Positions 20,177 through 26,744 of a stretch of 64,000 bases of DNA are shown here, one piece after another. The notes beneath the pieces are model-generated. The model had not been told where the DNA came from and did not search any database. It was given only the letters and a program-made list of their open reading frames with translations. The DNA is from Flavobacterium anseongense (lineage in GTDB: Bacteria > Bacteroidota > Bacteroidia > Flavobacteriales > Flavobacteriaceae), in the NCBI RefSeq assembly GCF_021608185.1, contig NZ_JAKIHN010000002.1:248001-312000 (forward strand), written 5' to 3'. Positions within the stretch are counted from its first letter, which is position 1. Each line of letters opens with the position of its first letter. The position numbers and the translations under genes were made by a program.

Positions 20177-20217
20177 AAAAACCTCGTCTCGTTTTTAGAA
20201 CGAGAGAGGTTTTTTTT
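20177..20217 (+). terminator. Rho-independent terminator after yceI
   Basis: Outer stem AAAAACCTC (20177-20185) with GAGGTTTTT (20206-20214), an inner stem TCTCGTT (20187-20193) with AACGAGA (20199-20205), one bulged base, and a T-run to 20217. Confidence 0.88.
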
Positions 20218-20225
20218 ATTTTTTG

Positions 20226-20256
20226 TTTGGAAATTAAAAACACATTCCTATATTTG
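20226..20256 (+). promoter_or_regulatory. Promoter of the trp operon
   Basis: TTTG at 20226-20229, a 19-bp spacer, then an exact TAnnTTTG element, TATATTTG, at 20249-20256. This is the canonical Bacteroidota arrangement. The leader peptide ATG begins 18 bp after the -7 element, so the transcript would have a very short 5' end before the leader. Confidence 0.8.
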
Positions 20257-20274
20257 TTAAATACAAATTCAAAA

Positions 20275-20331
20275 ATGAAAAACGTTTTAAATAATACTTG
20301 GTGGTGGAATAGTTTACGTCAGTCGTCGTGA
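20275..20331 (+). CDS. trpL: trp operon leader peptide with three consecutive Trp codons
   Basis: An 18-codon ORF reading MKNVLNNTWWWNSLRQSS, then TGA. Three consecutive TGG codons occupy 20299-20307. Trp is the rarest amino acid, so a WWW run in a tiny ORF between a trp promoter and trpE is very unlikely by chance. The ORF is too short for standard gene callers. Its role is inferred to be sensing: a ribosome starved of charged tRNA-Trp would stall on the WWW codons and change the folding of the downstream RNA. The peptide itself probably has no function. Confidence 0.88.
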   Translation: MKNVLNNTWWWNSLRQSS

Positions 20332-20400
20332 AGTAGTCCGTTATTGGTATCATTTATCCAAATAATATAAAAGACTTGTCATTCACGACAGGTCTTTTTT
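20305..20400 (+). promoter_or_regulatory. Ribosome-mediated transcription attenuator of the trp operon
   Basis: Three alternative RNA structures are visible. Segment 1 (20305-20318) can pair with segment 2 (20327-20340), with two mismatches; segment 1 starts at the third Trp codon. Segment 2 also contains GTCGTGAA (20325-20332), which pairs perfectly with TTCACGAC (20382-20389). That pairing would consume the loop and 3' arm of the terminator. The terminator itself is AAGACTTGTC (20371-20380) with GACAGGTCTT (20387-20396), one G-U pair, followed by a T-run to 20400. Stalling at Trp codons would free segment 2, form the antiterminator and allow transcription of trpE. Confidence 0.85.
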
Positions 20401-20419: not shown

Positions 20420-21814
20420 ATGCAACAGTTTAAATTACATACACAGCACAAACAAATCCTCGCCGACACGATTACGCCGGTAAGCATTTATCTCAAAATT
20501 CGGGATAAGTTTCCGAATAGCATTTTGTTAGAAAGTAGCGATTATCATACTGCCGACAATAGTTTCTCCTATATCTGCTGCAATCCTATCGCTTCGATAA
20601 AAATCGAAAATAATAGCATTGTGAGTTCTTTTCCTGATGGAACTTCAGATAAAATTGCCATTTCCACTTCCGTGAATGTGCCGAAGATTATTGAAGAATT
20701 CGCTTCTAAATTCCAACCCGAAAAGAATAACTTCAAGTTCATCAACAATGGCTTGTTTGGTTATATCAACTACGATGCGGTGCAATATTTCGAAAAAATA
20801 AGTATTCAAAAAAGAACCGATGATTTGGCGATTCCCGATTTGTATTATGCGGTTTACCAAAACATTATTGCTATTAATCATTTCAAAAACGAAGCGTATA
20901 TCTTTTGCCACAGCATTGATAACAGCAATAACATCAAGGAAATTGAACAACTATTGCAAACCAAAACCTTTGCGAGTTACCGTTTTACCAAAGAAGGAAA
21001 TTCGGTTTCCAATTTAACTGATGCCGAATTTAAATCGAATGTGGCTTTAGCCAAAAAACACTGTCATCGTGGCGATGTGTTTCAGTTGGTTTTGTCACGT
21101 CGATTTTCACAGGCTTTTAAAGGTGATGAATTTAATGTTTACAGAGCTTTGCGAAATATTAATCCTTCACCCTATTTGTTCTTTTTTGATTATGGAAATT
21201 TCAAGATTTTTGGGTCTTCGCCCGAAGCACAACTCGTAATTTCAAATAAGCATGCCGAAATTCATCCAATCGCCGGAACTTTTAAACGTACAGGAAACGA
21301 TGAACAGGATGCCGAATTAGCTAAAAAATTATCCGAAGACGCCAAAGAAAACAGCGAACATGTTATGTTAGTTGATTTGGCCAGAAATGATTTAAGCAGA
21401 AATTGCACTGAGGTAAAAGTCGAAAAATACAAAGAAGTCCAATTCTTTTCTCATGTCATTCATTTGGTTTCCAAAGTCACCGGAAAACTAACCGGAAGTT
21501 CGATGAAGTTAGTTGCTAATACTTTTCCCGCGGGAACCTTAAGCGGCGCACCAAAACACAAAGCAATGCAATTGATAGAAGAAATCGAAAACACAAACCG
21601 AACATTTTATGGTGGTGCCATTGGTTTCATGGATTTTGAAGGCAATTTTAATCACGCGATTATGATTCGAACTTTCCTTTCCAAAAATCATCAACTGCAT
21701 TATCAGGCTGGCGCCGGAATCGTAGAAAGTTCCTCAGAAGAAAACGAAATGCTGGAAGTTTACAATAAATTAGGAGCTCTCAACAAAGCACTCGAATTAG
21801 CAGAAACAATATAG
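20420..21814 (+). CDS. trpE: Anthranilate synthase component I
   Basis: The chorismate-using subunit; with TrpG-supplied ammonia it makes anthranilate, the first step of tryptophan synthesis. The 464-residue protein has the chorismate-binding C-terminal half: QLVLSRRFSQAF, SPSPYLFFFDYGN-like, GSSPEAQLVI, PIAGTFKRTG, ENSEHVMLVDLARND and FPAGTLSGAPKHKAMQLIEE, GGAIGF. The ATG at 20420 is chosen over a TTG six bases earlier. It begins 19 bp after the attenuator T-run and is the first structural gene of trpEGDCFBA. Feedback control by tryptophan is usual for the family. Confidence 0.96.
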   Translation: MQQFKLHTQHKQILADTITPVSIYLKIRDKFPNSILLESSDYHTADNSFSYICCNPIASIKIENNSIVSSFPDGTSDKIAISTSVNVPKIIEEFASKFQPEKNNFKFINNGLFGYINYDAVQYFEKISIQKRTDDLAIPDLYYAVYQNIIAINHFKNEAYIFCHSIDNSNNIKEIEQLLQTKTFASYRFTKEGNSVSNLTDAEFKSNVALAKKHCHRGDVFQLVLSRRFSQAFKGDEFNVYRALRNINPSPYLFFFDYGNFKIFGSSPEAQLVISNKHAEIHPIAGTFKRTGNDEQDAELAKKLSEDAKENSEHVMLVDLARNDLSRNCTEVKVEKYKEVQFFSHVIHLVSKVTGKLTGSSMKLVANTFPAGTLSGAPKHKAMQLIEEIENTNRTFYGGAIGFMDFEGNFNHAIMIRTFLSKNHQLHYQAGAGIVESSSEENEMLEVYNKLGALNKALELAETI

Positions 21815-21816
21815 TT

Positions 21817-22386
21817 ATGAAGAAGATAGCAGTCATCGACAATTACGATAGTTTTACATACAATCTCGTTCATTATCTGGAAGATTTGAATACAAAAGTC
21901 ACAGTATTCAGAAACGACGAATTTGACTTGGAAGAATTACAATCTTTCGACAAGATTCTCCTTTCGCCTGGTCCGGGAATTCCGGATGAAGCTGGTTTGC
22001 TAAAAGCTGTGATTTCAAAATATGCCGAAAGCAAAAGCATACTTGGTGTTTGTTTGGGTCAACAAGCCATCGGAGAAGTCTTTGGCGGAAGCCTTATAAA
22101 CCTTGATAAAGTATATCACGGTGTTGCTACAAAAGTGACGCAATCTGTTATAGACGAAACGCTTTTTAATGGTTTGCCAAATGATTTTGAAGTCGGACGT
22201 TACCACTCCTGGGTGGTTGCCAATGCTGATTTCCCTGCTGTTTTGGAAATCACTTCAACAGATGAAAACGGACAAATCATGTCATTACGCCACAAAACAT
22301 TAGACGTAAAAGGTGTGCAATTCCATCCTGAAAGTGTTCTGACGCCTTTTGGCAAACAAATTTTAGAAAATTGGGTAAACTCATGA
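21817..22386 (+). CDS. trpG: Anthranilate synthase component II (glutamine amidotransferase)
   Basis: Releases ammonia from glutamine for TrpE. The 189-residue class I amidotransferase has IDNYDSFTYNL at the N-terminus, LSPGPGIP (49-56), the nucleophile loop GVCLGQQA with Cys79, and the His-Glu pair in VQFHPES near the end. It follows trpE by 2 bp and overlaps trpD by an ATGA, so translation is coupled. No fused TrpD or TrpE domain is present. Confidence 0.96.
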   Translation: MKKIAVIDNYDSFTYNLVHYLEDLNTKVTVFRNDEFDLEELQSFDKILLSPGPGIPDEAGLLKAVISKYAESKSILGVCLGQQAIGEVFGGSLINLDKVYHGVATKVTQSVIDETLFNGLPNDFEVGRYHSWVVANADFPAVLEITSTDENGQIMSLRHKTLDVKGVQFHPESVLTPFGKQILENWVNS

Positions 22387-23381
22387 AAACAATTTTAAAC
22401 CGATTAATAAATCACGAAACGCTTTCAAAAGCAGAAGCCAAAGAAGTCTTAGTTAACATTTCCTCGGGACAATACAATCCGAGTCAGATTGCTTCGTTTT
22501 TGACAGTCTATATGATGCGAAACATTACCATTGAAGAACTTTCCGGCTTTCGCGAAGCACTTTTAGAGCTTTGCATTCCCGTTGACTTTTCAGCCTACAA
22601 TACCATCGATTTATGCGGAACCGGTGGCGATGGAAAAGATACGTTCAACATCTCAACCTTGGCTTCCTTTGTTGTTGCCGGAAGCGGAATTCACGTTGCC
22701 AAGCATGGAAACTATGGAGTTTCTTCCATTTCAGGTTCGAGTAATGTGATGGAAACTTTGGGCGTAAAATTCAGCAATGAAAAAGATTTCTTAGCCAAAT
22801 GTATTGACCAAGCGAATATTGCCATTCTTCACGCACCTTTGTTTCATCCGGCAATGAAGAACGTTGGTCCGATTCGAAAAGAACTTGGCGTTAAAACGTT
22901 CTTTAATATGCTTGGACCTATGGTAAATCCATCCTTTCCAAAGAACCAATTGGTAGGTGTTTTTAGTTTGGAATTGGCTCGTATGTATGCATATCTGTAT
23001 CAAAATACGAATGTAAATTATACGATTCTTCACGCTTTGGATGGTTATGACGAAATTTCATTAACTGCCGATGCCAAGATGATTACCAAAAACTCCGAAA
23101 GCATTGTCAATGCTGATGATTATCAATTGTCCAAACTATATTTTGAAGAAATAAAAGGCGGTGAAACCATTGAAGAATCAGCTAATATTTTCATGAATAT
23201 TATTTCCGGAAAAGGAACTGAAGCCCAACAAAATGTGGTTTGTGCCAATGCTGCGTTAGCGATTGCAACAGTTGAGAATTCATCTATAATTAATGCATTT
23301 GCGAAAGCTAAAGAAAGTTTACAATCCGGAAAAGCCTTAGAGAAACTACAAAAACTGCAACAAATCAGTCAAAACTCATGA
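22383..23381 (+). CDS. trpD: Anthranilate phosphoribosyltransferase
   Basis: Joins anthranilate to PRPP. The 332-residue product has the PRPP/anthranilate-binding DLCGTGGDGKDTFNISTLASF, KHGNYGVSSISGSSNVME and NVGPIRKELGVKTFFNMLGPMVNP segments. The start is the ATG at 22383, overlapping the trpG stop by ATGA; a TTG 12 bases upstream is less likely. Its stop overlaps the trpC start in the same way. Confidence 0.96.
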   Translation: MKTILNRLINHETLSKAEAKEVLVNISSGQYNPSQIASFLTVYMMRNITIEELSGFREALLELCIPVDFSAYNTIDLCGTGGDGKDTFNISTLASFVVAGSGIHVAKHGNYGVSSISGSSNVMETLGVKFSNEKDFLAKCIDQANIAILHAPLFHPAMKNVGPIRKELGVKTFFNMLGPMVNPSFPKNQLVGVFSLELARMYAYLYQNTNVNYTILHALDGYDEISLTADAKMITKNSESIVNADDYQLSKLYFEEIKGGETIEESANIFMNIISGKGTEAQQNVVCANAALAIATVENSSIINAFAKAKESLQSGKALEKLQKLQQISQNS

Positions 23382-24163
23382 GTATTTTAGATCAAATAAT
23401 CGCCAGTAAAAAGAAAGAAATAGCTTTAAAGAAGGCCGTGGTTTCGGTTGCGCAATTGGAAAACGCTGATTTGTTCAACAAAAAAACGAACTCTTTGAGC
23501 AAGTCGATTGTCAATTCGCCATTCGGAATTATAGCCGAACACAAACGCCGGTCGCCTTCAAAAGCTACAATTAATAGCAGTTTTTCAGTTGAAGAAATCG
23601 TGAAAGGTTATGAAAACGGAGGCGCTTCCGGGATATCTGTTTTAACCGATATGCAGTATTTTGGAGGTTCGTTGGAAGATTTGCTTTTAGCACGAGCTGC
23701 TGTTCAAATTCCGTTATTGCGAAAAGAATTCATTGTAGATGAATATCAGTTATTGGAAGCCAAAGCCTTTGGTGCTGATGCTATACTGCTGATTGCAGCC
23801 GTTTTATCCAAAAATGAAATCAAACAACTTTCAGAGTTTGCGCATTCATTGGCTTTAGAAGTTTTATTGGAAGTGCATAATCGTGAAGAATTAGATAAAA
23901 GCATCATGCCAAGTCTTGATTTGATTGGCGTGAACAACCGAAACCTGAAAACCTTTGAAGTGAGTTTGCAGAACAGCATCGATTTATCAAACCATATTCC
24001 GAACAACTTTGTAAAAATTTCCGAAAGTGGAATAACCACAACTGATGACATAAAATTACTGAGAAGCTACGGGTTTGAAGGCTTTCTGATTGGTGAAAAC
24101 TTTATGAAAACCGACAATCCAGGGAAAAGTCTGGAGCAATTTATCAATCAACTAAAAGGATAA
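23378..24163 (+). CDS. trpC: Indole-3-glycerol phosphate synthase
   Basis: Ring closure and decarboxylation of carboxyphenylamino-deoxyribulose phosphate. The 261-residue TIM-barrel shows IIAEHKRRSPSKATIN, with the catalytic Lys-rich loop, GASGISVLTDMQYFGGS, LRKEFIVDEYQ, IGVNNRNLKTFE and SESGITTTDD. It is a separate gene, not fused to trpF. Overlaps: ATGA with trpD, and one base (TAATG) with trpF. Confidence 0.96.
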   Translation: MSILDQIIASKKKEIALKKAVVSVAQLENADLFNKKTNSLSKSIVNSPFGIIAEHKRRSPSKATINSSFSVEEIVKGYENGGASGISVLTDMQYFGGSLEDLLLARAAVQIPLLRKEFIVDEYQLLEAKAFGADAILLIAAVLSKNEIKQLSEFAHSLALEVLLEVHNREELDKSIMPSLDLIGVNNRNLKTFEVSLQNSIDLSNHIPNNFVKISESGITTTDDIKLLRSYGFEGFLIGENFMKTDNPGKSLEQFINQLKG

Positions 24164-24789
24164 TGGCAATCAAAATCAAAATATGTGGTATGAAATTCAC
24201 TGAAAACATAAGTGAAATTGTTGAGTTGCAGCCTGATTATTTGGGTTTCATCTTCTATGAAAAGTCTCCGCGTAATTTTGAAAATACAATTCCAAACATT
24301 GATAAATCCATTCAAAAAGTGGGCGTTTTTGTCAATGCATCGTTTGAAATAATTCAGGAAAAAGTAAAACAACATGAATTAGATTTGGTTCAATTACATG
24401 GAGATGAAAGTCCCGAATTTTGTCATCTGTTACTACAAAATAAATTTAAAGTAATCAAAGCATTTAGTATTGATAACCAATTTAATTTTAATACTTTAAA
24501 CAATTATACTAATTATTGCGATCACTTTCTTTTTGACACTAAAGGAACAAATTACGGCGGCAATGGAATTACTTTCGATTGGTCAGTTTTAGAAAACTAT
24601 CATTTGGATAAGCCTTATTTTTTAAGTGGTGGAATTGGAGCAGAAAATATCGAAGAAGTAAAATCATTTCTATCAAAAGACTATTCCAAAAACTGTATCG
24701 CAATCGACTGTAACAGTAAACTAGAACTATCACCAGGATTAAAATCAACAGAAAAAACAAACCAGCTTATAAACGCTTTTAAAGAATAA
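24163..24789 (+). CDS. trpF: Phosphoribosylanthranilate isomerase
   Basis: Amadori rearrangement of phosphoribosylanthranilate. The 208-residue TIM-barrel shows the catalytic Cys in IKICGMKFTENI near the start, YLGFIFYEKSPR, VGVFVN and LVQLHGDESPEFC, then FDTKGTNYGGNG and FLSGGIGAENI. It is part of the coupled trp operon with a 1-base overlap to trpC. Confidence 0.95.
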   Translation: MAIKIKICGMKFTENISEIVELQPDYLGFIFYEKSPRNFENTIPNIDKSIQKVGVFVNASFEIIQEKVKQHELDLVQLHGDESPEFCHLLLQNKFKVIKAFSIDNQFNFNTLNNYTNYCDHFLFDTKGTNYGGNGITFDWSVLENYHLDKPYFLSGGIGAENIEEVKSFLSKDYSKNCIAIDCNSKLELSPGLKSTEKTNQLINAFKE

Positions 24790-24792
24790 ACT

Positions 24793-25980
24793 ATGAAAAC
24801 GAGTTACAATGTAAACGAAAAAGGATTTTACGGCGAGTTTGGTGGTGCATTCATTCCGGAAATGCTATATCCGAATGTAGAGGAATTACGTCAACAGTAT
24901 TTATCCGCAACAGCCGAACCTTCATTTCAGGAAGAATTTCATTCGCTTTTAAAAGAATATGTAGGCAGACCAACGCCATTGTACTTTGCCAAGCGATTGT
25001 CGGAACAGTTCAATACCAAAATTTATTTAAAGCGCGAAGACTTGTGTCATACCGGCGCACATAAAATCAATAATACCATTGGACAAATTTTGTTAGCCAA
25101 AAAACTGGGGAAAACCAGAATAATAGCCGAAACCGGCGCAGGGCAACACGGCGTGGCAACTGCGACAGTTTGTGCGCTTATGGGTTTGCAATGCATTGTA
25201 TACATGGGAGAAATTGATATTGAACGCCAAGCTCCAAATGTAGCCCGAATGAAAATGCTTGGAGCTGAAGTGCGTCCGGCAACTTCTGGATCTAAAACTT
25301 TAAAAGACGCAACGAATGAAGCAATTCGCGATTGGATTAACAATCCAGTTGATACTTTTTATATCATTGGTTCTGTAGTTGGACCTCATCCGTATCCAGA
25401 TATGGTGGCGCGGTTTCAGAGTGTGATTTCAGAGGAAATTCAGAAACAGCTTTTAGAACACGAAAATAGAGAAAACCCGGATTATGTAATTGCGTGTGTT
25501 GGTGGTGGAAGCAATGCAGCCGGAGCTTTCTATCATTTTTTAGATAATGAAAACGTAAAACTAATCGCTGTAGAAGCAGCCGGAAAAGGTGTTGATTCCG
25601 GAGAAAGCGCTGCAACTTCTATTCTTGGAAAGATCGGCGTTATTCATGGAAGCAAGACGCTTTTGATGCAAACCAAAGATGGACAAATCACTGAACCCTA
25701 CTCTATTTCGGCAGGTTTGGATTATCCCGGTGTTGGACCAATGCATTCGCATTTGTTTGAAACCAAAAGAGCCGAATTTATTGCTATTACTGACGATGAT
25801 GCGATGAAAGCCGGAATAGCATTAGCCAAAACCGAAGGTATTATTCCGGCGATTGAAAGCTCACATGCTTTGGCAGTTTTACATCAAAAGAAATTCAAGC
25901 CCGAAGATGTTGTTGTGATTAATTTGTCTGGTCGTGGCGATAAGGATCTGAATACGTATATCAACTATTTTAACTTATAA
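24793..25980 (+). CDS. trpB: Tryptophan synthase beta subunit
   Basis: PLP-dependent condensation of indole with serine. The 395-residue protein has [10 protein letters not shown] at the start, [15 protein letters not shown] with the PLP Lys, [15 protein letters not shown], and the phosphate-binding [16 protein letters not shown] 1:1 partner with TrpA in an indole-channelling complex. It follows trpF by 3 bp and precedes trpA by 2 bp. Confidence 0.97.
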
Positions 25981-25982
25981 AA

Positions 25983-26744
25983 ATGAATAGAATTCAAAAC
26001 AAATTATCAGAGAATAAAAAAATACTATCTATTTATTTTTCAGCAGGTTTTCCTAATTTAAACGACACTAAAAGTTTAATTGAAAACTTAGCCAAAAATA
26101 ATGTTGATATGATTGAAATCGGTTTGCCGTTTAGCGACCCTTTAGCCGACGGACCAACCATACAAGCCAGCTCTACACAAGCTTTAAAAAATGGAATGAC
26201 AACCGAAATTTTGTTTGAACAAATCAAAGACATTCGGGAAACCGTAGAAATTCCGTTAATCATCATGGGGTATTTCAATCCGATTTTACAATTTGGAATT
26301 GAAAACTTTCTGAAAAAATGTCGCGAAATTGGCATTGACGGCTTAATAATTCCGGATTTACCATTAGAAATATACCTTTCAGAACACAAACAGCTCTTTG
26401 AAGATTATGGCATTGCAATGATTTTCCTGATTACGCCTCAAACATCAGAAGAACGCATCCGTTTGATTGATGAGAATTCGAATGCATTTATTTATATGGT
26501 TAGCAGTTCTAGTGTAACGGGAAGCAGAGATAGTTTTGACGACAATCAATTGGCATATTTTGAAAGAATCGCGTCCATGAATTTAAAAAATCCACAAATA
26601 GTTGGATTCGGAATTAGCAACAAAACTACTTTTCAACAAGCTGTAAAACATCAAAAAGGAGCTATTATTGGCAGTAGTTTTATTCAATTTATTGCTAACA
26701 ATCCAATAGTAAACATTTCTGTATTCATCCAAAATTTGCTTTAG
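25983..26744 (+). CDS. trpA: Tryptophan synthase alpha subunit
   Basis: Cleaves indole-3-glycerol phosphate to indole and glyceraldehyde-3-phosphate. The 253-residue TIM-barrel shows IEIGLPFSDPLADGPTIQ with the catalytic Glu and Asp, GYFNPILQFG, DGLIIPDLPLE, and the phosphate-binding VGFGISNKTTF and GAIIGSSFIQ. It is the last gene of the operon. No strong terminator is visible in the AT-rich DNA that follows. Confidence 0.96.
   Translation: MNRIQNKLSENKKILSIYFSAGFPNLNDTKSLIENLAKNNVDMIEIGLPFSDPLADGPTIQASSTQALKNGMTTEILFEQIKDIRETVEIPLIIMGYFNPILQFGIENFLKKCREIGIDGLIIPDLPLEIYLSEHKQLFEDYGIAMIFLITPQTSEERIRLIDENSNAFIYMVSSSSVTGSRDSFDDNQLAYFERIASMNLKNPQIVGFGISNKTTFQQAVKHQKGAIIGSSFIQFIANNPIVNISVFIQNLL

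Follow-up and report, generated by a model that had tools for sequence, protein, structure and literature searches.

The window analyzed here, i.e., the whole 64,000-nucleotide stretch of Flavobacterium anseongense DNA, carries a short leader region between a promoter and the tryptophan biosynthesis genes, and the question raised by this locus is whether transcription of the trp operon is decided there by the position of a translating ribosome and, if so, through which RNA pairings. The region is almost certainly a ribosome-mediated transcription attenuator of the trp operon and a member of the Bacteroid-trp family. An attenuator of this kind, in this family and in this genus, is already known and is catalogued in Rfam; what is added here is the antiterminator, which the Rfam model does not cover, the evidence that it is conserved as RNA, and its preference for the loop and 3′ arm of the terminator over the 5′ arm. 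With the element and a likely mechanism already published, the discovery is a modest one.

All parts of the unit lie on the forward strand. The Bacteroidota-type promoter (20226–20256) consists of TTTG at 20226–20229, the upstream promoter consensus, a 19-bp spacer, and TATATTTG at 20249–20256, with a predicted transcription start at approximately 20261. It is followed by the leader peptide ORF MKNVLNNTWWWNSLRQSS of 18 codons (20275–20331), which starts with ATG at 20275, ends with TGA at 20329–20331, and contains three Trp codons in a row (20299–20307) as the sensing site. Both the promoter and the leader had been proposed in the first-pass annotation and were found as described. The intrinsic terminator (20369–20398) has a 12-bp stem (20369–20380/20387–20398), the 6-nt loop ATTCAC, and a T-rich tail; its presence and its T-run had been recognized correctly, and only its position had been given two nucleotides too far downstream (20371–20400). 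Likewise, trpE does adjoin the terminator, its ATG at 20420 being located 21 nt past the corrected stem; 19 bp had been given for this distance earlier.

The first structural gene, trpE (20420–21814), has TIGR00564 as the best NCBIfam match of its product, at 424 bits and under the curated cut-off of 518. It is followed by trpG, trpD, trpC, trpF, trpB, and trpA (21817–26744, assigned by NCBIfam), so that an operon of the order trpEGDCFBA stands directly 3′ of the attenuator; trpG, trpD, trpC, trpB, and trpA each pass a curated NCBIfam cut-off, and the best match of trpF is under its own. Upstream, a terminator-like hairpin with T-runs on both strands (20187–20205) was seen between a YceI-like gene and the trp promoter, and because it precedes this promoter, the trp unit is set apart from its upstream neighbor. 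The leader RNA folds at −34.7 kcal/mol (z = −4.28), a stability that was equaled in none of 200 dinucleotide shuffles. When both strands of the window were scanned for short ATG-led ORFs that contain residue runs and precede a terminator, the trp leader was the single site returned, and the control scan of five mononucleotide shuffles, one strand each, returned none.

In Rfam release 15, RF01692 (Bacteroid-trp) matches positions 20255–20380 over model positions 1–131 with 59.8 bits against a gathering score of 49, and this is the sole match above gathering score across the 64-kb window. The E. coli-type trp leader family gave no match in the window at gathering score, nor at E up to 1, and no T-box or riboswitch match above gathering score was obtained there; further Rfam matches at E up to 1 were weak and under the gathering scores of their families. 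T-box and other riboswitch readings were therefore dropped, RF01692 being the only Rfam family matched above gathering score in the window. The setting also agrees with the family, since TrpE shares 96% identity with the Flavobacterium paronense protein, a placement in Bacteroidota, and the trp genes lie downstream; with a full-length match above gathering score in this phylum and position, nothing was found that separates the element from Bacteroid-trp. Note that the model stops within the terminator 5′ arm, and therefore the 3′ arm and the antiterminator pairing fall outside it.

Bacteroid-trp appears in Weinberg et al. (2010, PMC2864571) among the RNAs of Bacteroidetes with a likely cis-regulatory role, and it was placed upstream of the Flavobacterium psychrophilum trp operon and likened to the E. 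coli leader by Rochat et al. (2019, PMC6414381). This element shares its genus and operon with the one in the window, and in the passage concerned it is described without antiterminator anatomy; in some F. psychrophilum strains, trpA is co-transcribed with an elastase gene (PMC6414381). A transcriptome study of 2021 on the same species reported strong clues for leader-peptide attenuation at amino-acid operons, with conserved 5′ elements of pheA and hisG that had no Rfam hits; its passage on attenuation names these two genes and not trp (PMC9723704). In the open-licence literature, no paper was found on the antiterminator or on ribosome-mediated attenuation in Flavobacterium.

The distribution of the family was counted from RF01692 matches at E up to 0.001. 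Matches were obtained in 24 of the 37 genomes of the genus (own genome counted), 208 of 299 in the family (184 above the cut-off), 1 of 23 other genomes of the order, 17 of 198 in another order of the class, and 30 of 296 in a sample of the phylum. That the element is missing from a third of the genus was considered and rejected, because the 13 unmatched genomes comprise two with divergent trpE, one with a fragment, and ten with putative paralogues. The two divergent TrpE proteins (G013 and G024) are 51% identical and have their own WW leader and terminator upstream; in a third genome, only a 54-residue TrpE fragment was present (85% identity); and the TrpE hits of the remaining ten, at 25–33% identity only, are read as paralogues, with the trpE orthologue putatively absent. 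With trpE divergent, fragmentary, or putatively lacking in the unmatched genomes, the element would therefore accompany the trp operon in the genus.

To compare relatives through a sample chosen independently of the RNA, the best 80 of 489 confirmed loci by TrpE similarity were used, the majority of them belonging to records labelled Flavobacterium. All 80 have an ATG-led leader containing Trp codons, and the script counted three Trp in every one; the motif TCGTGA lay between the Trp codons and the terminator in 80/80, and TCACGA lay in the terminator in 78, the exceptions being L100 and L104. One of the contigs (L062) is labelled as a Bifidobacterium breve MAG and carries a TrpE 84% identical to that of the window together with a Flavobacterium-type leader; it is probably mislabelled or part of a mixed bin. 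A larger set of 235 rows, in which some genomes occur twice (e.g., as L020 and L069), combined the window with 24 genus loci, 30 family loci, the 80 trpE-selected loci, and 100 further family hits. Here, an ATG-led WW leader was found in 230 rows, and the other five, inspected by eye, have WWW after GTG or TTG; the script called a terminator in 228 of the 230, and the remaining two showed imperfect hairpins by eye. So, a short Trp-rich leader ORF and an intrinsic terminator ahead of the first structural gene are conserved together, and the absence of Trp codons and hairpins in relatives, which had been named earlier as grounds for abandoning the attenuator, was not what the comparison of trpE upstream regions showed.

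In F. psychrophilum, TAnnTTTG at −12 to −5 is the sigma-A box (PMC9723704); of 229 loci, 220 had this box no more than 60 nt from the leader ATG, compared with 244 of 4580 regions after shuffling. When the start is placed 12 nt after the first base of the box, the leader 5′ length is most commonly 13–14 nt and is 14 nt in the window. No Shine-Dalgarno sequence was visible before the leader ORF, which is usual in the phylum (PMC6847099, PMC9976891), the ribosomes of these bacteria failing to recognize such sequences (PMC9976891).

The antiterminator core, GTCGTGAA (20325–20332), overlaps the leader stop codon and is exactly complementary to TTCACGAC (20382–20389), i.e., to the terminator loop and the first three bases of the 3′ arm, just as had been proposed. 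Its conservation was followed in a 131-row alignment composed of the window, seven loci of the genus chosen by eye for their diversity, and 123 family loci, leaving out the five rows without an ATG-led WW leader and the two without a script-called terminator. These rows were selected with RF01692, whose model includes the core and the Trp codons but not the partner of the core, and for this reason the conservation of the partner, TCACGA, is the fairer test. TCGTGA was exact in 127 of the 131 rows, and the six central pairs between it and TCACGA were standard in 127–131 of them, against just 52 and 78 for the outer two of the eight pairs present in the window. Taken together, the eight pairs were standard in 87% of cells, and this value fell to 19–49% after sliding the partner by one to three bases. 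The near-invariance of the core leaves few rows in which covariation can be seen; in L204, two pairs are altered on both sides as compensatory double changes.

The position of the leader stop codon relative to the core varies (inside it in 69 rows, 5′ of it in 32, and 3′ of it in 30), as does the frame of the core relative to the Trp codons (frame 0 in 100 rows, frame 1 in 27, and frame 2 in 4), and the spacing from the first Trp codon to the core is 27–28 nt in 126 rows. The exact TCGTGA despite differing reading frames means that it is kept as RNA and not as peptide. Moreover, the antiterminator is larger than had been claimed from the exact core pairing, which itself stood: a second block, AGTC at 20335–20338, is predicted to pair with GACT at 20373–20376 in the 5′ arm, and 3 of 200 shuffles of the 70-nt piece folded equally well. 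Across the 131 rows, the stretch after the core formed 6.36 pairs with the terminator 5′ arm, against 3.77–4.53 in five shuffled sets. Where most relatives carry GGC in the terminator arm, the window carries GAC, a change that suits the stem and the antiterminator alike.

Opposed to these pairings is hairpin 1 (20288–20356), predicted to join the Trp-codon region with the post-stop stretch and to enclose the antiterminator core. The shorter pairing suggested previously, of segment 1 (20305–20318) with segment 2 (20327–20340), was recovered within it, 12 of 14 positions being paired and two of these as G-U by our reading. RNAalifold gave no consensus structure for hairpin 1 in the 131-row alignment, and row-by-row folding with shuffles was used for this reason. 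The Trp region and the post-core stretch formed a mean of 16.1 pairs, against 7.4 with that stretch shuffled, and 117 of the 131 rows folded no less well than any of their three shuffles; pairing of the core itself was barely above the shuffles (0.81 vs 0.73).

How these structures would alternate was followed in a nascent-RNA model, placing polymerase three bases past the start of the 3′ arm and scoring the antiterminator when its pairing exceeded 0.5. With a ribosome masking the RNA up to the first or third Trp codon, the antiterminator was predicted in 129 of 131 rows; with the ribosome at the stop codon, it was predicted in none, and with no ribosome, in 44. The two rows without an antiterminator in the modeled register are L218 and L219, and by eye L219, like its relatives L284 and L285, can pair GTGAG(A) with (T)CTCAC in a register displaced towards the 5′ arm. 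Ribosomes cover approximately 15 nt on either side; with this footprint, the core stays exposed when a ribosome sits on the Trp codons, and a ribosome at the stop codon covers it in 130 of 131 rows, L024 being the exception because its ORF runs on for 32 nt. So, the mutual exclusivity of the hairpins held in the folding models, which are consistent with an antiterminator that would exclude the terminator and be freed by a stalled ribosome. At the same time, the alternative states were seen only in the nascent transcript: in the full-length fold the terminator won in 131 (no ribosome), 130 (first Trp), 127 (third Trp), and 131 (stop) of the 131 rows, and equilibrium folding was therefore rejected as a test of the switch. 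Since the terminator wins at equilibrium in nearly every state, antitermination would have to be kinetic, i.e., depend on the order of emergence, which is how E. coli attenuation is also taught to work.

In the mechanism that we infer, comprising stalling, termination, kinetic capture, and a response to Trp, ample charged tRNA-Trp would allow the ribosome to reach the stop codon that overlaps TCGTGA and to mask this motif, and the terminator would form and end transcription ahead of trpE. When charged tRNA-Trp is scarce, the ribosome would stall on the Trp codons and melt hairpin 1, leaving TCGTGA free to capture the terminator loop, the first 3′-arm bases, and part of the 5′ arm while these emerge from polymerase; the terminator would be delayed by this capture, and trpEGDCFBA would be transcribed. 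If no ribosome is present, the core is predicted to be held within hairpin 1 in the majority of relatives, which would again lead to termination. The first-pass proposal of ribosome-mediated attenuation by charged tRNA-Trp is supported to the extent that conservation and folding are consistent with it.

Other readings of the same region have to be weighed against this one. The strength of the terminator, which prevails in every modeled state of the full-length RNA, would suit a plain, unregulated terminator beside which the leader ORF is incidental; however, the upstream gene already has its terminator-like hairpin at 20187–20205, before the promoter, and the conservation of WWW leaders, of the core, and of the nearly fixed Trp-to-core spacing makes such a reading highly improbable. 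Scarcely any probability can be given either to an RNA that senses Trp or uncharged tRNA directly, without translation, in the manner of a riboswitch or T-box: a structured leader ahead of a biosynthetic operon would fit it, but the window yielded no match of that type, and the Trp-codon ORF is conserved though its frame relative to the core varies. The similarity of the peptide within the genus could suggest that the peptide itself is the functional product, a view made very hard to credit by its second half, which varies between genera and ends differently relative to the core among the 131 rows.

A closer competitor accepts attenuation by ribosome position and differs in its last step, where a pseudoknot between the core and the loop would weaken a terminator stem that still forms, instead of replacing it. 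Because the core takes the loop and just three 3′-arm bases, the lower stem could in principle coexist with it by a reading of the sequence; however, the second block pairs with the 5′ arm above shuffles, which would exclude the stem, and this variant is regarded as unlikely.

Additionally, the pairing was sought in distant relatives at 25 sites, namely the window, G013, G024, twenty order- and class-level loci, and two sites in L025. The script found no terminator in L292, L298, and L025b, leaving 22 sites for the pairing test. In 13 of these, an upstream stretch pairs with the terminator hairpin in a way matched by at most 10 of 200 shuffles; the other nine distant loci were not clearly above shuffles (11 to 64 of 200), least of all L025a (64/200). 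In L237 and L283, the pairing falls on the 5′ arm of the terminator, as it does in E. coli, as against the loop and 3′ arm in the family of the window. The mechanism thus appears conserved, with sequence and register moving. In another family of the order (G037), tandem leaders, MQKINTIWWWQSKL and MLNNKINNWWWPVLTQYAGQSCYNII, were observed before trpE (L025:101-360), each followed by its own terminator-like hairpin, the second of which was not called by the script. In two loci of another order (L264 and L298), we read the RF01692 element as standing before a trpB-like start and not before trpE.

Several further candidate attenuators were seen in the same genome. Upstream of hisG (L302), the leader MKNLISQIHHHHSCSQAS precedes a terminator and has no Rfam match; a leader containing a run of three or more His was present upstream of hisG in 27 of 30 loci and in none of L315, L319, and L332. 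Both hisG and pheA 5′ elements are mentioned for F. psychrophilum (PMC9723704). The ORF MKTFNTFYSYFFYFFFGQKKGLVLCYVKK, followed by a T-tailed hairpin upstream of a prephenate dehydratase gene (L333), is likely a Phe attenuator, and MYSDTNIINIVSIIIIPKFG, followed by a strong T-tailed hairpin upstream of ilvD (L303) and without an Rfam match, is likely an Ile/Val attenuator. A weak candidate, possibly a Thr attenuator, is the Ile/Thr-rich ORF MWNNKNIFTSASAANLLAVIIIATTSTTTPFGV with a short hairpin at its end, upstream of an aspartokinase/homoserine dehydrogenase ORF (L336).

The E. coli trp attenuator has a Trp-rich leader with two Trp codons, alternating pairings in which the antiterminator takes the 5′ arm of the terminator, and a terminator before trpE. 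The element in the window has in common with it the Trp-rich leader, the alternating pairings, and the terminator ahead of trpE, and differs in that it has three Trp codons, no Shine-Dalgarno sequence was seen, and its antiterminator acts mainly on the loop and 3′ arm. It may therefore be a structural variant of classical attenuation, with an antiterminator that invades from the loop and 3′ side with partial help from the 5′ arm, although we hold this view tentatively and at somewhat less than even probability. If it is true, the decision would fall within a few bases, between the emergence of the loop and that of the 3′ arm, and the element would provide a genetic read-out of the closeness of ribosome and polymerase in a lineage that does not use Shine-Dalgarno sequences. 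The parts of the attenuator are now mapped in enough detail for a simple reporter assay. In classical attenuation, the first ribosome has to follow close behind polymerase, and an attenuator conserved across Flavobacteriaceae would thus be indirect evidence for ribosome–polymerase coupling in bacteria whose ribosomes do not recognize Shine-Dalgarno sequences (PMC9976891).
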